Below, piece by piece: positions 11,513 to 18,285 of a stretch of 39,025 nt of DNA (positions are counted from its first letter, which is position 1; each line of letters opens with the position of its first letter). Position numbers and translations under genes: made by a program. The stretch comes from Porticoccaceae bacterium (GTDB lineage Bacteria; Pseudomonadota; Gammaproteobacteria; Pseudomonadales; Porticoccaceae): contig JAQWUP010000082.1 of assembly GCA_029242085.1 (NCBI GenBank), forward strand, positions 1 through 39,025, given 5' to 3'. The notes beneath the pieces were generated by a model that worked only from the letters and a program-made list of their open reading frames with translations, was not told the DNA's origin and did not search any database.

Positions 11513-14500
11513 TTGTCCTCGCAACAGCCAACCAGTCCAGAAGCCAAATCTCTCAGTCAAGCGCCGACTAAAAATGCAGATTTTGAACAGCTCGCCCAAT
11601 GGTTGCCTCAATCGGTAGGCAGCCGTGATTTATTTCGTCTCGGCCGTCAGCTAAAAGAGTTACAGCGACAGTGGTCGGCTAAAAAAGATATAGCAACGGC
11701 CTGGCAGAAGTGGTCTTCCAATGCGCTGCGTTCCAGCACTCAGGTGGCTGCGCGGCAGCAGACCGTGCCACAGATTAACTATCCGGATCTGCCGGTCAGT
11801 GCCCGCTGTGAAGAAATTCGCGAGTTGATTGTCGAGCAGCAGGTTGTCGTTATTGCCGGTGAAACTGGCTCAGGCAAGACTACCCAGATCCCAAAAATCT
11901 GCCTGCAGGCCGGTCGTGGAGTACGCGGCATTATTGGTCATACCCAGCCACGCAGAATTGCTGCACGCACCGTTGCGGATCGTATCGCCAGCGAATTAAA
12001 AACCCCGCTGGGTGAGGCGGTGGGTTATCAGGTGCGGTTCTCAGATCAGAGTTCCAGCAAAAGTCTGATCAAGCTGATGACCGATGGCATACTGCTGGCA
12101 GAAATTCAGAATGATAAGTTTCTCAGTAAGTACGACACGCTTATTATCGATGAGGCCCATGAGCGTAGCCTCAATATTGATTTCCTGCTAGGTTATTTAA
12201 AAAACCTACTGGTGCAACGCCAAGATCTTAAATTAATTATTACCTCTGCCACCATTGATGTAGAGAAATTTTCCAAGCACTTTAATAATGCGCCAGTGGT
12301 TGAGGTGTCCGGGCGAACTTTTCCCGTCGAAATTGTATACAGCAATGACGATGTCCTCGACAGTGACCGCGACCAAAAAATTATTGAATGCTTACAAGAT
12401 ATACAGGCCAATCGAAGGGCCGGTGATGTGCTGGTATTCCTCAGTGGTGAGCGTGAAATTCGCGAAGCCAATCTCGCCATTAAGCGCGCTCAGTTGCCCC
12501 ATACAGAGGTGGTGCCACTCTATGCCAGATTGAGCCTTGCCGAGCAGAGTAAAATCTTTGCTCCGCACAGAGGAAGGCGGGTTATTTTAAGTACTAATGT
12601 TGCCGAGACCTCGCTCACCGTTCCCGGTATTGGCTATGTGATTGACACTGGGCGCGCGCGATTGTCGCGCTACAGTTTCCGCACTAAGGTGCAGCGTCTT
12701 CCCATAGAAGCTATTTCTCAGGCCAGCGCCAATCAGCGTGCCGGGCGCTGTGGCCGGGTGAGCAATGGCATCTGCTATCGTCTCTACGCAGAGGACGATT
12801 TTAATAACCGCCCAGAGTTCACCGACCCAGAGATTGTGCGGACCAATTTAGCCGCGGTGATATTGCAAATGCTGCAGCTAAATATTGGTGATATACGCAG
12901 TTTTCCCTTTGTTGACCCACCCGATAATCGCATGATCAATGATGGCTTTAAACTGCTTGAGGAGCTACAGGCGGTCACCGCTAAAGGCAAGCTAACCTCT
13001 CTGGGTAAGAAGCTGGTATCTGTGCCCTTAGATCCGAGATTTGCAAGGATGATTCTGGAGTCAGCAAAACTTGGTTCACTGACTGAAGTGATGATTATCA
13101 CCACTGGGCTCAGTATCCAAGACCCGAGAGAGCGGCCGGCTGACAAGCAGCAGGCTGCCGACCAGTGCCATCAACAGTGGCAGGACGAAGACTCCGACTT
13201 TATGTCGCTGCTAAATCTGTGGCGTCATTTTGAAACTAAGCGCCAAGATTTATCCACTAACCAGTTCAGCAAGTACTGCCGCGCCAACTATGTGTCTTTT
13301 TTGCGCATGAAAGAATGGCGCGACTTGCACTATCAGGTACATACCGCCGTTCGAGCACTCAAGCTTGGCAGCAATCAAAAGCCGGCAGAATATGCGGCCA
13401 TTCATCAGGCGATTCTCTCGGGCCTCCTCGGGCAGGTGGGTATACGCGAGGAAAAGTGGGAATTTCTCGGCACCAGAAATCGCAAGTTCTTTATCTTTCC
13501 CGGTTCGGGACTGAGTAAAAAGCCACCCAAGTGGATTATGGCGGGCTCACTGATGGAAACCGCTAAGCAGTATGCACTGAATGTGGCCAAAATTGATTCC
13601 GACTGGCTGGAGTCATTGGCGGGTCATCTGGTTAAAAAAACCTATAGCGAACCCTTCTACCATCAAAGGGCCGGTCAGGTCATGGCCAAAGAGCGCCAAA
13701 CTCTATTTGGTTTGACTATTGTTGAAGGCAAGAACACCGTCTATGGCAATGTTGCACCGGTAGAGGCGCGGGCTGTATTTATTCAGCAGGCGCTGGTTGA
13801 GCAGGGCTATCGTGGCAAAGGTCACTTTTATCGGCACAATCAAAAACTAGTCGAAGAGTTACAGGCACTGGAAGATCGCTTTCGTCGCCGCGACCTGTTG
13901 GCTGAACAAAAAGTGATCTACAGCTTTTACGACGAGCGTGTTCCTGCGGGCATTTATAATCTGCCGGCGTTTGAGAAGTGGCGAAAAGGTGCAGAGCAAG
14001 AAAATGCCAGCTTGCTTAAGATCAATAAAGACTCTCTATTACTCCGTGGTCTGGCCGAAGATGAAGAGGCCCAGTTTCCTGAAATAATTAGCTGCGATGG
14101 TATTGAGTTTGAACTCAGCTACCATTTTCAGCCCGGTCATGATCAGGATGGCGTCAGCGCCATTGTTCCATTGGCTCTGCTGCATCAGCTGCCACGCTAC
14201 TTTTTCGAATGGCTGGTGCCGGGCATGTTGCGGGATAAATGCATCGCCCTGATTAAAACCCTGCCCAAGCAGACAAGGCGCCATCTTGTGCCAGTGCCAG
14301 ACTATGTCGACAAGATACTGTTACAGGCCAGAGCCCAGGATCGACCGATTACCGAGGTTTTAGCTGAGCAGCTTAAGCGGCACACAGGCGTCTCAGTGAA
14401 TGATCAGGATTGGAAGGCAGATAATCTTGATCCCTGGTATCGCATGAATTTTATTCTGTGTGATGAAGCGGGTAAAACCGTAGCTATGGCGCGCAGCTTG

Positions 14501-15463
14501 GAACAGCTGCAGCGCGATTTTAAACAGCAGATTAGTGCCGGGCTGGAACAGCAGGCGTCCGATGACTCAATATCCCGACAGGATATTGTCGAATGGGACT
14601 TTGCCGAGTTGCCCGAGGAAGTAACATTAAAGCGCGGCAAAATAAGCATTAAAGCCTGGCCTGCACTTAAAGACTGTGGCGAATCTGTCGCCATTGAAGT
14701 GCTGGATAATCCATTGACCGCCGATAAAATTAGCCGTCAGGGGCAGCTGCGGTTGGCGCTGCTAAAAGGTCGTGAACAGGTTAAGTATCTGACTAAAAAT
14801 CTACTCCGTGGTACCGAGCTGGCGCTAAAGGCGGCGTCTATTGGCAATCGTCAGGAACTTGTCGCCGCGCTGATTAATGCCAGTTTTCAGGAGGCCATTT
14901 TTAGTGGCAAACAGGTGCTTCGCCAGCAGCGCGACTTTGATCAGGCCTATCAAATGGGCATAGGCCTGGTGGTCGATATAGCGCAGCAGCATGCCGCCCA
15001 TATTGAATCAGTACTGCCGCAGCTGCACAGCAATCAAAAGCAATTGCGGTCGCTGGGGCTAAGTGCAATTTATGCGAAAGACGATATCAATCAACAGCTA
15101 AGCTGGTTATTTCAGCCTGCGACTTTATCCGGCGCAGGCCTCGATAAAACCAGCCAATACCCCCGCCTAGTTCGCGCCATGCAAATTAGAATCGAAAAAC
15201 TCAGCTCGCAAATTAATAAAGACCGCAGCTACATCCAACAGCTAGAGAGCTTTGCCGAGCCCATCAGTGGCTTACACGGGCAGATGCTGTCTCATGAACT
15301 TGAAGAGGCCATTTGGGAATTTCAGTGGTTACTCGAGGAGTATCGAGTGTCACTGTTCGCCCAGCAATTAAAAACCCGGGTGCCTGTGTCTGAGAAGCGC
15401 CTGAAAAAACACTGGTCAGATATTCACGACAGGTTGCGCAGATACCTGGTTGAGGGAAGCTAG
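11513..15463 (+). CDS. hrpA: ATP-dependent RNA helicase HrpA (DEAH-box)
   Basis: DEAH-box RNA helicase; in E. coli HrpA takes part in fimbrial mRNA processing and in clearing stalled ribosomes. The 1316 residues, close to E. coli's 1300, contain a short N-terminal region (DLFRLGRQLKELQRQW), Walker A GETGSGKTT (116-124), the DEAH box (213-216), SATID (motif III), QRAGRCGR (motif VI), the helicase-associated winged-helix/ratchet region, and a long HrpA-specific C-terminal domain. The start appears to be a TTG at 11513 with no good ribosome site: homology to HrpA begins upstream of any in-frame ATG, and the TTG lies four bases after the dnaQ stop, so translational coupling is the likely route. 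Start position is less sure than identity. Confidence 0.93.
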   Translation: MSSQQPTSPEAKSLSQAPTKNADFEQLAQWLPQSVGSRDLFRLGRQLKELQRQWSAKKDIATAWQKWSSNALRSSTQVAARQQTVPQINYPDLPVSARCEEIRELIVEQQVVVIAGETGSGKTTQIPKICLQAGRGVRGIIGHTQPRRIAARTVADRIASELKTPLGEAVGYQVRFSDQSSSKSLIKLMTDGILLAEIQNDKFLSKYDTLIIDEAHERSLNIDFLLGYLKNLLVQRQDLKLIITSATIDVEKFSKHFNNAPVVEVSGRTFPVEIVYSNDDVLDSDRDQKIIECLQDIQANRRAGDVLVFLSGEREIREANLAIKRAQLPHTEVVPLYARLSLAEQSKIFAPHRGRRVILSTNVAETSLTVPGIGYVIDTGRARLSRYSFRTKVQRLPIEAISQASANQRAGRCGRVSNGICYRLYAEDDFNNRPEFTDPEIVRTNLAAVILQMLQLNIGDIRSFPFVDPPDNRMINDGFKLLEELQAVTAKGKLTSLGKKLVSVPLDPRFARMILESAKLGSLTEVMIITTGLSIQDPRERPADKQQAADQCHQQWQDEDSDFMSLLNLWRHFETKRQDLSTNQFSKYCRANYVSFLRMKEWRDLHYQVHTAVRALKLGSNQKPAEYAAIHQAILSGLLGQVGIREEKWEFLGTRNRKFFIFPGSGLSKKPPKWIMAGSLMETAKQYALNVAKIDSDWLESLAGHLVKKTYSEPFYHQRAGQVMAKERQTLFGLTIVEGKNTVYGNVAPVEARAVFIQQALVEQGYRGKGHFYRHNQKLVEELQALEDRFRRRDLLAEQKVIYSFYDERVPAGIYNLPAFEKWRKGAEQENASLLKINKDSLLLRGLAEDEEAQFPEIISCDGIEFELSYHFQPGHDQDGVSAIVPLALLHQLPRYFFEWLVPGMLRDKCIALIKTLPKQTRRHLVPVPDYVDKILLQARAQDRPITEVLAEQLKRHTGVSVNDQDWKADNLDPWYRMNFILCDEAGKTVAMARSLEQLQRDFKQQISAGLEQQASDDSISRQDIVEWDFAELPEEVTLKRGKISIKAWPALKDCGESVAIEVLDNPLTADKISRQGQLRLALLKGREQVKYLTKNLLRGTELALKAASIGNRQELVAALINASFQEAIFSGKQVLRQQRDFDQAYQMGIGLVVDIAQQHAAHIESVLPQLHSNQKQLRSLGLSAIYAKDDINQQLSWLFQPATLSGAGLDKTSQYPRLVRAMQIRIEKLSSQINKDRSYIQQLESFAEPISGLHGQMLSHELEEAIWEFQWLLEEYRVSLFAQQLKTRVPVSEKRLKKHWSDIHDRLRRYLVEGS

Positions 15464-15493: not shown

Positions 15494-15521
15494 GAAACTT
15501 ACCTAACGCCATTCAGTCTGA
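15494..15521 (+). promoter_or_regulatory. Possible sigma-E/ECF-type promoter for hvfABC
   Basis: GAAACTT (15494-15500), a 15-base spacer, then GTCTGA (15516-15521), close to the GGAACTT / TCTGA pattern of RpoE-type sigma factors. It would give a leader of about 60 bases before hvfA. A weaker sigma-70 alternative starts at TTGAAA (15530). Pattern match only. Confidence 0.35.
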
Positions 15522-15575
15522 ATAGCATCTTGAAACCATACTGGTTCTTGATTTATGGATAACAATTAGTCTCTC

Positions 15576-15581
15576 AAGGAG
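15576..15581 (+). promoter_or_regulatory. Strong ribosome binding site of hvfA
   Basis: AAGGAG, eight bases before the hvfA ATG. It is much better than the sites seen for the downstream hvfB and hvfC, which fits a precursor peptide made in excess over its modifying enzymes. Confidence 0.7.
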
Positions 15582-15589
15582 AAATTTCA

Positions 15590-15829
15590 ATGTCTAAACA
15601 AACAATCAAACCTTTGGCAGCAGCATGTGGCGTAGCATTTATAGCGTCTGTGGCACTATCCCCAGCAGCATTAGCCGCGGGCAACCCTTTTCAGGCAGAC
15701 CAACTCTCATCCGGTTACAACATCGCTGGTGATGCTGCAGAGGGCAAATGTGGTGAAGGTAAGTGCGGTGGCGAAAAGGCTGCATATGAAGGTAAGTGCG
15801 GTGAAGGAAAATGTGGCGGCGACCAATAG
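15590..15829 (+). CDS. hvfA: HvfA-type RiPP metallophore precursor with four EGKCG motifs
   Basis: Small secreted peptide precursor, 79 residues. An N-terminal signal peptide (MSKQTIKPLAAACGVAFIAS, cleavage probably after ALA near residues 29-30) is followed by GNPFQADQLSSGYNIAGDAA and a core with EGKCG at 51-55, 56-60, 67-71 and 72-76. The two EGKCGEGKCG pairs are split by GEKAAY, with Cys54, 59, 70 and 75. In the described HvfA/bufferin families such Cys residues are modified by a DUF692 (MNIO) enzyme and the product binds copper or other metals. The next two genes are the matching maturase and partner, with a nine-base gap. Membership in this RiPP class is well supported by motif plus context; the exact modification and metal here are inference. 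Confidence 0.9.
   Translation: MSKQTIKPLAAACGVAFIASVALSPAALAAGNPFQADQLSSGYNIAGDAAEGKCGEGKCGGEKAAYEGKCGEGKCGGDQ
15754..15803 (+). repeat. 17-base direct repeat within the hvfA core
   Basis: TGAAGGTAAGTGCGGTG occurs at 15754-15770 and again at 15787-15803, 33 bases (11 codons) apart. It shows recent duplication of an EGKCG-bearing unit at the DNA level; the other two EGKCG motifs use different codons. Confidence 0.8.
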
Positions 15830-15838
15830 GCGCCATCG

Positions 15839-16726
15839 ATGACCTCTGGTCTACACAGTCATAGCTTGTTAGATAACCAGAGTACAACCAGCCGCTATGC
15901 CGTTGCAGGCGCGGGGCTGGGACTAAGGCGGGCTCTACTGGGCCCGCTTTCTTCTGTCACCACAGATGATATTCAGTTTATCGAGGTGGCGCCGGAAAAC
16001 TGGATCAATGTAGGCGGCCGCTACGGCAAAGCCTTTCGTGAATACACTGAAAAATTCCCCACGGTTATTCACGGCCTGTCTCTCTCCATAGGTTCGCCGG
16101 CACCCCTAGATTGGAATTTGCTTGGCCAAATCAAAGCCTTTATGGCGCAACATAATATTCTTAGTTATACCGAACATCTCAGCTACTGCAGTGATACTGG
16201 CCATCTCTATGATCTTATGCCAATTCCTTTTACCAGCGCCGCGGTGGACTATGTCGCCGACCGTATCAGTCGGGTTCAAGACTTTTTGGGCCAGCGTATC
16301 GCCATGGAAAACGTGTCCTATTACGCCGCACCGCAGCAGGAGATGTCGGAGATAGAATTTACCAATGCAGTGATAGAAAAGGCCGACTGTAACCTCTTAC
16401 TCGATATCAATAATATTTATGTCAACAGTATTAACCATGGTTACGATGCGCGGAAATTTCTAGCCGCGCTACCCGGCCATCGCGTGGTCTATGGCCATAT
16501 AGCAGGACATTATGAGGAGGCAGAGGACTTGCGCATCGATACCCATGGTGCCGATGTTATAGATCCAGTTTGGGATCTTCTCGATCTGTCCTATCAGCAG
16601 TTTGGTGTATTCCCAACCCTGCTCGAGCGCGACTTTAATATTCCCCCAGTGGATGAATTAGTACTAGAAGTGGGACGTATTAGGTCAATTCAGCGCGCCA
16701 ATCAAAAGGTGTTTGTCGATGCCTAA
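15839..16726 (+). CDS. hvfB: HvfB-type DUF692 (MNIO) RiPP maturase
   Basis: Multinuclear non-haem iron-dependent oxidative enzyme (DUF692, TIM-barrel) predicted to modify the Cys residues of HvfA in the cytoplasm before export. The 295-residue protein keeps the family's ligand motifs: H78 (IHGLSLSIG), E112-H113 (YTEHLSYCSD), E157 (AMENVSYY), D189/N192 and H200 (LLLDINNIYVNSINHG), H220 and H224 (YGHIAGHYEE), H236 (DTHGADVID) and E263 (LLERDFNIP). Together these are typical of an active MNIO. The ATG follows the precursor stop by nine bases and its 3' end overlaps hvfC by eight bases, so the three genes are translated as a unit. The first ~20 residues are Ser/Thr-rich and may be a lineage-specific extension. 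Confidence 0.92.
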   Translation: MTSGLHSHSLLDNQSTTSRYAVAGAGLGLRRALLGPLSSVTTDDIQFIEVAPENWINVGGRYGKAFREYTEKFPTVIHGLSLSIGSPAPLDWNLLGQIKAFMAQHNILSYTEHLSYCSDTGHLYDLMPIPFTSAAVDYVADRISRVQDFLGQRIAMENVSYYAAPQQEMSEIEFTNAVIEKADCNLLLDINNIYVNSINHGYDARKFLAALPGHRVVYGHIAGHYEEAEDLRIDTHGADVIDPVWDLLDLSYQQFGVFPTLLERDFNIPPVDELVLEVGRIRSIQRANQKVFVDA

Positions 16727-17489
16727 GGCGAAAGTAAACTTCCAGCAGACTCAGCGCCAGTTTGCAGATCATATCCGCCACCCAGACTTTAATGCGGCGC
16801 CAGCAGATATCGAGGATCGCCGTCTAAAAATTTACCGCGATCTGTTCTTTAATAATATTGAATCGTTTTTAGCCTCAGGATTTCCGATTCTCAAATCTAT
16901 CGTCGACCCCCAAAACTGGCTGGAGATGGTGCGGGACTTTGTTTATCGCCATCAGAGTCTAAGCCCTTATTTCCTGCAAATTAGTGAAGAGTTTTTACGC
17001 TATCTACAGCAGGAGCGAGAGACCCAGCCCGCCGATCCAGCATTTATGTTGGAGCTCGCCCATTATGAATGGGTTGAGTTGGCGCTGGACGTCTCCACCT
17101 TAGCAATCCCCGAGGACATAGCATTAACCGGCGATGTGCTGGAGCAGCACCCAGTTGTATCGCCCACAGCCTGGCGTTTGTCCTACCGTTATCCGGTGCA
17201 TAAAATAGGTCCGAATTATCAACCCATAGAGCAGGAGCTTGAAGCGGGCGGCACCACAATTATTGTCTATCGCAATCGTGATTTAGAGGTTGGCTTTATG
17301 GAGTCAAACCCAATTACAGTGCGGCTACTGGATCTTCTAGAAACTGAGCAGCTATCGGGAAGAGCGTCTATATTAAGGCTAGCCGAGGAGATAAATCACC
17401 CACAACCTGAGAGTCTTCTGGCGTTTGGTGCAGAGCTTTTGCACAATCTTATGGATAGGGATGTTATCTGTGGATTTCATCAATTCTGA
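16719..17489 (+). CDS. hvfC: HvfC-type DUF2063 RiPP maturation partner
   Basis: Partner protein of the MNIO maturase. In characterised systems this family helps recognise the precursor and deliver it to the HvfB-like enzyme. The N-terminal DUF2063 region is clear (QTQRQFADHIRHPD, RRLKIYRDLFFNNIESFLAS, FPILKSIV), and the C-terminal half from about residue 130 (VVSPTAWRLSYRYPVHKIG) resembles the family's second domain, ending in a winged-helix-like stretch. Length 256. I start it at the ATG at 16719, which overlaps the hvfB stop by eight bases; a TTG two codons earlier is less likely. No DoxX-like membrane gene (hvfD), common in such operons, follows here. Confidence 0.88.
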   Translation: MPKAKVNFQQTQRQFADHIRHPDFNAAPADIEDRRLKIYRDLFFNNIESFLASGFPILKSIVDPQNWLEMVRDFVYRHQSLSPYFLQISEEFLRYLQQERETQPADPAFMLELAHYEWVELALDVSTLAIPEDIALTGDVLEQHPVVSPTAWRLSYRYPVHKIGPNYQPIEQELEAGGTTIIVYRNRDLEVGFMESNPITVRLLDLLETEQLSGRASILRLAEEINHPQPESLLAFGAELLHNLMDRDVICGFHQF

Positions 17490-17577: not shown

Positions 17578-18285
17578 ATGAAAGATACCAAGCTATTACT
17601 GACTTCTGTCCTCACCTTTATGCTGGCAACTTCGGCATTTGCTGAAGAAGAGCAAACAAATGATAGTTTCGAAGGCCTCAATCGCAAGGCTTTTGTGTTT
17701 AATGAGACGTTGGACAATGCGCTGCTTAAGCCAGTGGCTAAAACCTATGCCGCGGTTATTCCCGATCCCTTGGAGCGAGGGATTCTCAATGTGTTTAGTA
17801 ATCTCAACGAAGTCACCAACATACTCAATGATCTACTGCAGGCTAAATTTGCGCATGCTGGCCATGATTCGGGTCGATTTTTGATCAATACCACCATAGG
17901 TGTTGGCGGCCTGTTTGATGTGGCCCAACGCGCTGGCCTGGAAAAAAGTGAAGGTGAAGACTTTGGTCAAACCCTTGCCAATTGGGGGGTATCAGAGGGC
18001 CCCTACCTAATGCTGCCATTTGTCGGGCCATCAACATTGCGCGATGCGCCCTCTAAGATTATTGATAGCTTTGCCAATCCGGTGGCTTATATGGACCATG
18101 TGTCCACGCGCAACTCGGTAAGAGCATTGGATCTACTGGCCATGCGAGCCGATTTATTGGCACTGGATGACGTTATATCTGGCGACAGATACCTGTTTGT
18201 AAGAGATGTTTACCTGCAGCGTCGAGAGTATCTGGTCAGTGACGGTGCCATTGAAGATGACTTTGGCGATCTAGACGACTATTAA
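17578..18285 (+). CDS. mlaA: MlaA (VacJ) family outer-membrane phospholipid retrograde-trafficking protein
   Basis: Outer-membrane component that removes phospholipids from the outer leaflet and passes them to MlaC for return to the inner membrane. The 235 residues have the family's hallmarks: DSFEGLNRKAFVFNETLD, RFLINTTIGVGGLFDVA, EDFGQTLANWGVSEGPYLML and PFVGPSTLRDA. The N-terminus (MKDTKLLLTSVLTFMLATSA, then FAEEE) reads as an ordinary signal peptide with cleavage after AFA. There is no Cys, so unlike E. coli MlaA it cannot be a lipoprotein. An in-frame GTG three codons upstream is possible; I prefer the ATG, which has a GAG-rich site just ahead. No mlaBCDEF genes are in the window. Confidence 0.92.
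   Translation: MKDTKLLLTSVLTFMLATSAFAEEEQTNDSFEGLNRKAFVFNETLDNALLKPVAKTYAAVIPDPLERGILNVFSNLNEVTNILNDLLQAKFAHAGHDSGRFLINTTIGVGGLFDVAQRAGLEKSEGEDFGQTLANWGVSEGPYLMLPFVGPSTLRDAPSKIIDSFANPVAYMDHVSTRNSVRALDLLAMRADLLALDDVISGDRYLFVRDVYLQRREYLVSDGAIEDDFGDLDDY

Follow-up and report, generated by a model that had tools for sequence, protein, structure and literature searches.

An hvfABC RiPP operon of a Porticoccaceae bacterium and its unlinked hvfX: a probable two-locus system

Is an hvfABC operon with no DoxX gene beside it a minimal form of its kind, or is the membrane partner encoded elsewhere in the genome? This question is raised by a 39,025-nucleotide stretch of a Porticoccaceae bacterium (GenBank assembly GCA_029242085.1, contig JAQWUP010000082.1; hereafter the window), which carries a compact operon for a ribosomally synthesised and post-translationally modified peptide (RiPP). 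An earlier note, made from the letters of the window, had described the three genes, remarked that the usual DoxX-like companion was absent and that mlaA followed instead, and called the operon a minimal form. We consider it probable that the window, from a marine bacterium of the SAR92 clade, holds a captophorin/oxazolin-type HvfABC RiPP operon that belongs to a two-locus system, with HvfX, the DoxX-like protein, supplied in trans. This explanation draws on the genes present and their family assignments, on the unlinked hvfX with its co-occurrence and largely coordinated loss, and on similar promoter boxes. The features of the operon are as follows.

15494-15521, plus strand: extracytoplasmic function (ECF; sigma-E-type) promoter-like box upstream of hvfA, GAAACTT (15494-15500), N16, TCTGA (15517-15521)
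15590-15829, plus strand: hvfA, 79-residue precursor matching NF050137
15839-16726, plus strand: hvfB, MNIO (DUF692) maturase of 295 residues
16719-17489, plus strand: hvfC, partner protein with DUF2063 and NGO1945_C (RiPP recognition element, RRE), 256 residues from ATG, with TTG at 16713 as an alternative start

HvfX at a distant locus

The source assembly (genome label G000; 2.19 Mb, 91 contigs, 82.65% complete), in which the window is contig C87, encodes an HvfX of 222.4 bits against the NF050144 cut-off of 80. Its gene lies on another contig (G000:C30:113970-114611, minus strand), standing alone between genes for a MATE exporter and a DEAD-box helicase. The statement that DoxX is absent from the operon, with mlaA following, was therefore correct for the operon but not for the genome. 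The idea of a minimal operon was rejected once this HvfX was found, because HvfX is encoded elsewhere in this genome and matches over the cut-off in all 58 Porticoccaceae genomes with HvfB, G000 included; the neighbourhood by itself is a misleading guide to whether a DoxX gene is missing.

Across 112 genomes of the family, HvfB exceeded its cut-off in 58 and HvfX in 65; both were present in 58, HvfB alone in none, HvfX alone in seven, and neither in 47. Among the seven with HvfX alone, G007, G008, and G072 had fragmentary HvfB matches only, and G011, G029, G044, and G067 had no HvfB match. The two genes were neighbours in two of the 58 genomes (adjacent in G005, 6.7 kb apart in G063) and on different contigs in 51, where the contig breaks leave some room for linkage; in the five single-contig genomes (G037, G059, G070, G094, and G095), they were 0.4-1.2 Mb apart. 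The G005 locus (L062, on contig C9) reads hvfA-hvfB-hvfX, with hvfC not detected in its 16.7-kb stretch of a metagenome-assembled genome (MAG) that contains undetermined bases, so that a gap is possible.

The site of hvfX is fixed in the genus of the window's genome. The order prfA-prmC-MATE-hvfX-DEAD was found at 19 of 20 genus sites fetched (with a broken hvfX in G050), and the twentieth, in G016, was cut by a contig end. In four genomes of three other genera (L112-L115), hvfX also lies between the MATE and DEAD genes, together with one extra, glutamate-synthase-like gene (a Pfam assignment in L112, a similarity judged by eye in the other three). In seven genomes of another genus, g10 (L096-L102, corresponding to G070, G072, G076, G077, G083, G085, and G086), hvfX sits instead immediately after a stand-alone second EGKCG precursor gene, at a locus separate from hvfABC. 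The product of this gene is probably a second substrate of the same HvfBC. An ECF-sigma-like open reading frame (ORF) was located upstream of the precursor-hvfX pair in L096 (by Pfam) and L101 (by eye). At a further locus, L103 (G068:C133), a divergent ECF sigma factor lies upstream of an EGKCG precursor, which is followed by a divergent DoxX gene and an ORF that looks radical-SAM-like by eye. In G000, the NF050137 search matched the window copy alone, and a motif search beside hvfX yielded no second precursor.

Beyond Porticoccaceae, 28 loci had no HvfX near hvfABC, and 26 genomes were searched (L139 and L156 being left out). HvfX over the cut-off was encoded elsewhere in 17 of them, including all four Microbulbifer genomes, and its position outside the hvfABC stretch was confirmed for 16 of these 17; the other nine had no HvfX over the cut-off. 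Since 17 of 26 genomes encode HvfX elsewhere and nine lack it, unlinking is widespread and HvfX is not universal.

We then considered the 27 genus genomes without HvfB. Their hvfX site was informative in 25 (it was cut by a contig end in G039, and G055 had no prmC site) and was empty in 21, occupied by a remnant in two, and by an intact gene in two (G044 and G029). The remnants are those of G054 and G038, which are most closely related to the genome of the window and have lost hvfABC. DoxX in general is not what is lost, because 23 of the 27 genomes keep some DoxX-family match. On an IQ-TREE tree of HrpA with 46 rows, from which the long-branched G020 was left out together with four of the six outgroup genomes, we counted six changes in HvfB and five in HvfX; G014, G025, G029, G032, and G052 had no usable HrpA and stand outside the trees. 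Six independent pairs on this tree showed HvfX differing in the same way in five, in the opposite way in none, and without a difference in one (sign test, p = 0.0625), and starred branches of an earlier quick tree with 51 rows gave four, none, and one, respectively (p = 0.125). Thus, hvfX was largely lost in coordination with hvfABC, by which a functional link is supported, not proven.

Promoter boxes and the case for one regulon

Upstream regions were scored against the -35 and -10 parts of the E. coli sigma-E consensus, to a maximum of 11 and with a threshold of 9 or more. The -35 part followed PMC8103513. The hvfA box is the sole site of at least 9.5 on both strands of the window, and a similar box, GGAATTT-N16-TCTAA, precedes the unlinked hvfX of G000. 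Boxes at or above the threshold preceded hvfA in 18 of 20 genus upstreams (2.0 in shuffles) and 32 of 52 family upstreams (4.2 in shuffles), and hvfX in 17 of 22 upstreams (2.1 in shuffles), compared with 4 of 157 upstreams belonging to six neighbouring genes, taken as controls (7.5 in shuffles). The 22 hvfX upstreams comprise 18 from the genus and four from L112-L115; L108, with fewer than 100 bases, was left out and scores 10 in a separate scoring. These shuffle and Fisher tests count related genomes as independent, which the tree test does not. The intact hvfX of G044 (L239, G044:C28) is preceded by a box that scores no more than 7 of 11, as though its control were in decay. G000 has one RpoE over the model cut-off among six weaker or stronger matches, and the ORFs after its rpoE resemble rseA and rseB by position and by eye. 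A scan of the window for sigma-70 promoters and terminators showed no excess over shuffles and was uninformative, and a scan for tRNAs found none.

Control of the Hvf family by an ECF factor is already in print, because RpoE2 of H. influenzae controls a DoxX-COG3767-COG3220-DUF2063 cluster under hypochlorite (PMC7907618), which is taken to be the hvf operon. What is new here is the same kind of box before two unlinked units, which suggests that hvfA and the unlinked hvfX form one regulon in the genus. An ECF or sigma-E-type promoter would drive both transcription units, and the system would therefore probably be switched on by envelope or oxidative stress.

Several observations weigh against a functional pairing of HvfABC with HvfX under shared control. 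HvfBC of H. influenzae modify HvfA in vitro without HvfX (PMC13419390). G044 has lost hvfAB and retains an intact hvfX, hvfABC persists in G050 although the hvfX frame there is broken, and G011, G029, and G067 have HvfX with no HvfB found; HvfX is broken or piecemeal in three of the 58 genomes (G050, G081, and G063). The sign tests fall short of significance on both trees. The MATE gene is also gone in six of the 21 genomes with an empty site, so a wider deletion is possible in these six. At G009:C322:5543-7841 and G010:C8:74352-76620, HvfX, which is the only one over the cut-off in G009 and one of two in G010, lies about 1 kb from a second MNIO of 269-270 bits against the HvfB cut-off of 360, and because of this proximity HvfX may serve more than one MNIO system there. 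hvfABC occurs without any HvfX over the cut-off in Gilvimarinus, in Cellvibrio mixtus, and in three of the four genomes of Nitrosomonas. As for the boxes, none reached 9 in genus g10 (0/7 hvfX upstreams and 0/6 scorable paired precursors), none was found in the 1.5 kb upstream of rpoE, where autoregulation was looked for, and few were present outside the family (7 of 43 hvfA upstreams, including one of four from Microbulbifer).

Part of this evidence favours another explanation, in which HvfABC works by itself as a minimal system, the unlinked HvfX has some other task, and the two occur together only through common ancestry and the general reduction of SAR92 genomes. The sufficiency of HvfBC in vitro, the nine of 26 outside genomes without HvfX, the broken pairing in G044 and G050, the second MNIO near HvfX in G009 and G010, and the sign test at p = 0.0625 are all consistent with it. 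It accounts poorly for HvfX in 58 of 58 genomes, five independent pairs in the same direction with none opposite, HvfX remnants in the two closest HvfB-lacking relatives, similar boxes at both loci in the genus, the adjacency of HvfX to hvfC or an EGKCG precursor in other genomes, and the persistence of DoxX-family matches in 23 of 27 HvfB-lacking genomes, by which the loss is not one of DoxX in general. We regard this explanation as unlikely, and prefer the two-locus system with HvfX in trans.

The operon, its precursor and the expected product

The operon itself is a member of the known oxazolin/captophorin (Buf_EGKCG) family, as judged from sequence. HvfB scored 435 bits with the NCBIfam HvfB model NF003818 (cut-off 360) and 337.5 bits with PF05114, and remained below the cut-offs of the equivalog models for BufB (NF050167; 250.4 versus 310 bits) and, by far, MbnB (TIGR04159; 43.5 versus 325 bits). 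HvfC scored 301.6 bits with NF050145 (cut-off 142), and its Pfam domains PF09836 (91.4 bits) and PF22106 (94.9 bits) supply both DUF2063 and an RRE-like domain. HvfA exceeded the cut-off of the KCGExKCG_twice domain model NF050137 (35.3 versus 19.5 bits), failed the narrower HvfA equivalog NF050188 (41.9 versus 95 bits), and had no Pfam match at E 0.01, including none to DUF2282. The closest named relatives of HvfB, at 86-89% identity, are from MAGs labelled Pseudomonadales, Porticoccaceae, and HTCC2207 (SAR92 clade). The three genes and the tight packing described in the earlier note were borne out by the ORF coordinates together with these models: hvfA and hvfB are separated by 9 bp, hvfB and hvfC overlap, and AAGGAG at 15576-15581 provides the ribosome-binding site of hvfA. 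Each of the ten ligand residues that it had listed for HvfB (H78, E112, H113, E157, D189, H200, H220, H224, H236, and E263) was verified individually. The nearest solved structure by sequence is PDB 3BWW (E 1.3e-74), described as 72.4% identical to H. influenzae HvfB (PMC13419390); through the 3BWW alignment, Asn191 or 192, Asp234, and His236 map to N175, D242, and H244 of the H. influenzae enzyme (PMC13419390).

The N terminus of HvfA resembles a signal peptide by eye, with a basic start, a hydrophobic stretch, and ALAA before GNPF. The precursor then carries the segment NPFQADQLSSGYNIA and four EGKCG motifs, whose cysteines are located, as described previously and verified one by one, at positions 54, 59, 70, and 75. 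We compared it with family EGKCG ORFs, 52 of which have a complete NPF segment; the four of 56 without one, three of them cut by contig ends, were dropped. Core cysteines numbered 4 to 14 among the 52, and the four of the window are the minimum, seen in four precursors including that of the window. The suggestion that the core spacing may be lineage-specific did not survive this comparison, as the cysteines are most often spaced by 5 or 11 residues and the 5-11-5 pattern is identical in G016. The linker GEKAAY was also rejected as a lineage marker, its letters occurring in the window alone among the 52 while the spacing recurs in G016. The NPF...L..GY segment after the putative signal peptide (window 15683-15727) is present in 52 of 56 family ORFs and 33 of 45 other EGKCG ORFs examined, and is nearly invariant in family precursors despite the variable core. 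It may be a recognition element for HvfC; the term NPF is absent from the main text of PMC13097082.

The low motif number, together with the loss of hvfABC from G054 and G038, the nearest relatives, would fit a locus in decay in this lineage. G000, however, retains three undamaged reading frames, the hvfB-hvfC overlap, the promoter box, and an intact hvfX, and we consider decay very improbable.

The chemistry, the need for HvfC, and the copper binding proposed here are carried over from papers on relatives. In H. influenzae, HvfB depends on HvfC to reach its active, mixed-valent di-iron state, six EGKCG cysteines each lose 4 Da on conversion to 5-thiooxazoles, and the precursor is strongly preferred at full length, signal sequence included (PMC13419390). 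An older oxazolone/thioamide assignment has been revised (PMC13097082). The earlier proposal of an HvfABC RiPP operon for an exported peptide, probably for copper, was right, with Cu(I) as the probable ion bound, and the modification should now be read as 5-thiooxazole rather than oxazolone/thioamide (PMC13097082, PMC13419390). By the chemistry published for relatives, four 5-thiooxazoles are expected on the window HvfA. HvfC, with its DUF2063 and RRE domains, would bind the N-terminal signal or leader region of the precursor and bring it to di-iron HvfB, which would oxidise the four EGKCG cysteines with the loss of four hydrogens each; the modified peptide would be exported by Sec and bind Cu(I) in the envelope, with membrane-bound, DoxX-like HvfX contributed from its distant conserved locus.

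A secreted chalkophore for copper acquisition, like methanobactin, would be a different end product from such a protective envelope buffer. The Cu(I) binding of bulbicupramide (PMC12538549) is compatible with this option, and the earlier note had allowed for a secreted peptide. The MbnB score of 43.5 versus 325 bits, the tight operon holding no further gene, the stress-type promoter box, and the protection against copper afforded by bufferins (PMC12452194) argue for the envelope buffer, and we find a chalkophore improbable.

The genes on either side of the operon lie outside the system.

11513-15463, plus strand: hrpA-type helicase gene (DUF3418), conserved upstream neighbour
17578-18285, plus strand: mlaA (PF04333, 238.1 bits), conserved downstream neighbour

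Two of the 27 HvfB-lacking genus genomes had no MlaA match; in all 25 remaining loci, mlaA came after hrpA and neither hvfA nor hvfB was matched between the two, and G044 retains an hvfC remnant there. The candidate role of mlaA as a functional partner was accordingly rejected. Because hrpA-mlaA-rssB is a housekeeping order into which hvfABC is inserted, mlaA is a neighbour and not a substitute for the DoxX companion.

Significance and relation to known systems

As the operon belongs to a known family, the new element is its two-locus organisation. Among the literature matches listed for HvfX, DoxX, DUF692, DUF2063, RpoE, oxazolin, captophorin, and SAR92, an hvfABC/hvfX split is not reported in titles or abstract openings. 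A landscape paper states that the core genes occur "in various combinations" and tabulates co-occurrence for MNIO and partner genes, not DoxX, in its main text, which its supplementary tables may include (PMC12452194). HvfX is called uncharacterised in PMC13419390, and DoxX proteins were left out of a heterologous study, as its authors note (PMC13097082).

We tentatively propose, as a possibility short of an even chance, that SAR92, other Porticoccaceae, and Microbulbifer share a two-locus oxazolin regulon (with both loci sigma-E-type in SAR92). In this regulon, HvfX would be indispensable in vivo as a membrane partner, for instance to load or anchor the exported thiooxazole peptide or to handle its redox state, and envelope or oxidative stress, not copper, would act as the trigger. 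In Microbulbifer, mmrABC modifies all six cysteines of the tested MmrA to give a Cu(I)-binding product, and the Mmr proteins were undetected even with copper added and protected E. coli only slightly (PMC12538549); the word DoxX is absent from the main text of that paper. If true, the two-locus regulon would explain why this three-gene cluster is unexpressed under copper and poorly protective without HvfX, and envelope stress with HvfX in trans offers a concrete hypothesis for the unexplained silence of the mmr cluster. A co-inherited, similarly controlled, and physically separate HvfX also makes its role genetically testable, since a deletion at one locus has no polar effect on the other.

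Among known systems, the H. influenzae oxazolin system (hvfABC, hvfX) shares with that of the window a precursor with paired EGKCG motifs and a signal peptide, putative in the window, the MNIO HvfB, HvfC, and the DoxX protein HvfX (PMC13419390), as well as the ECF type of control of a DoxX/COG3220/DUF2063 cluster (PMC7907618). It differs in that hvfX is unlinked here, that the window precursor has two EGKCG pairs rather than three, and that this precursor falls below the NF050188 cut-off. The Microbulbifer mmrABC/bulbicupramide system shares the order hrpA-hvfABC-mlaA-rssB in four genomes, no DoxX gene being linked and HvfX being encoded elsewhere in all four, whereas its precursors have 5-8 cysteines (PMC12538549) and only one of four hvfA upstreams has the box. 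Fontiphorin and the captophorins (PMC13097082) have EGKCG repeats, an MNIO with PME1, and 5-thiooxazoles, the last expected by analogy in the window, with seven sites in FonA compared with four in the window HvfA. Bufferins (DUF2282, Caulobacter) and methanobactin are likewise MNIO-modified copper RiPPs, from which the window system is set apart by a precursor without a DUF2282 match and by scores below the BufB and MbnB cut-offs.

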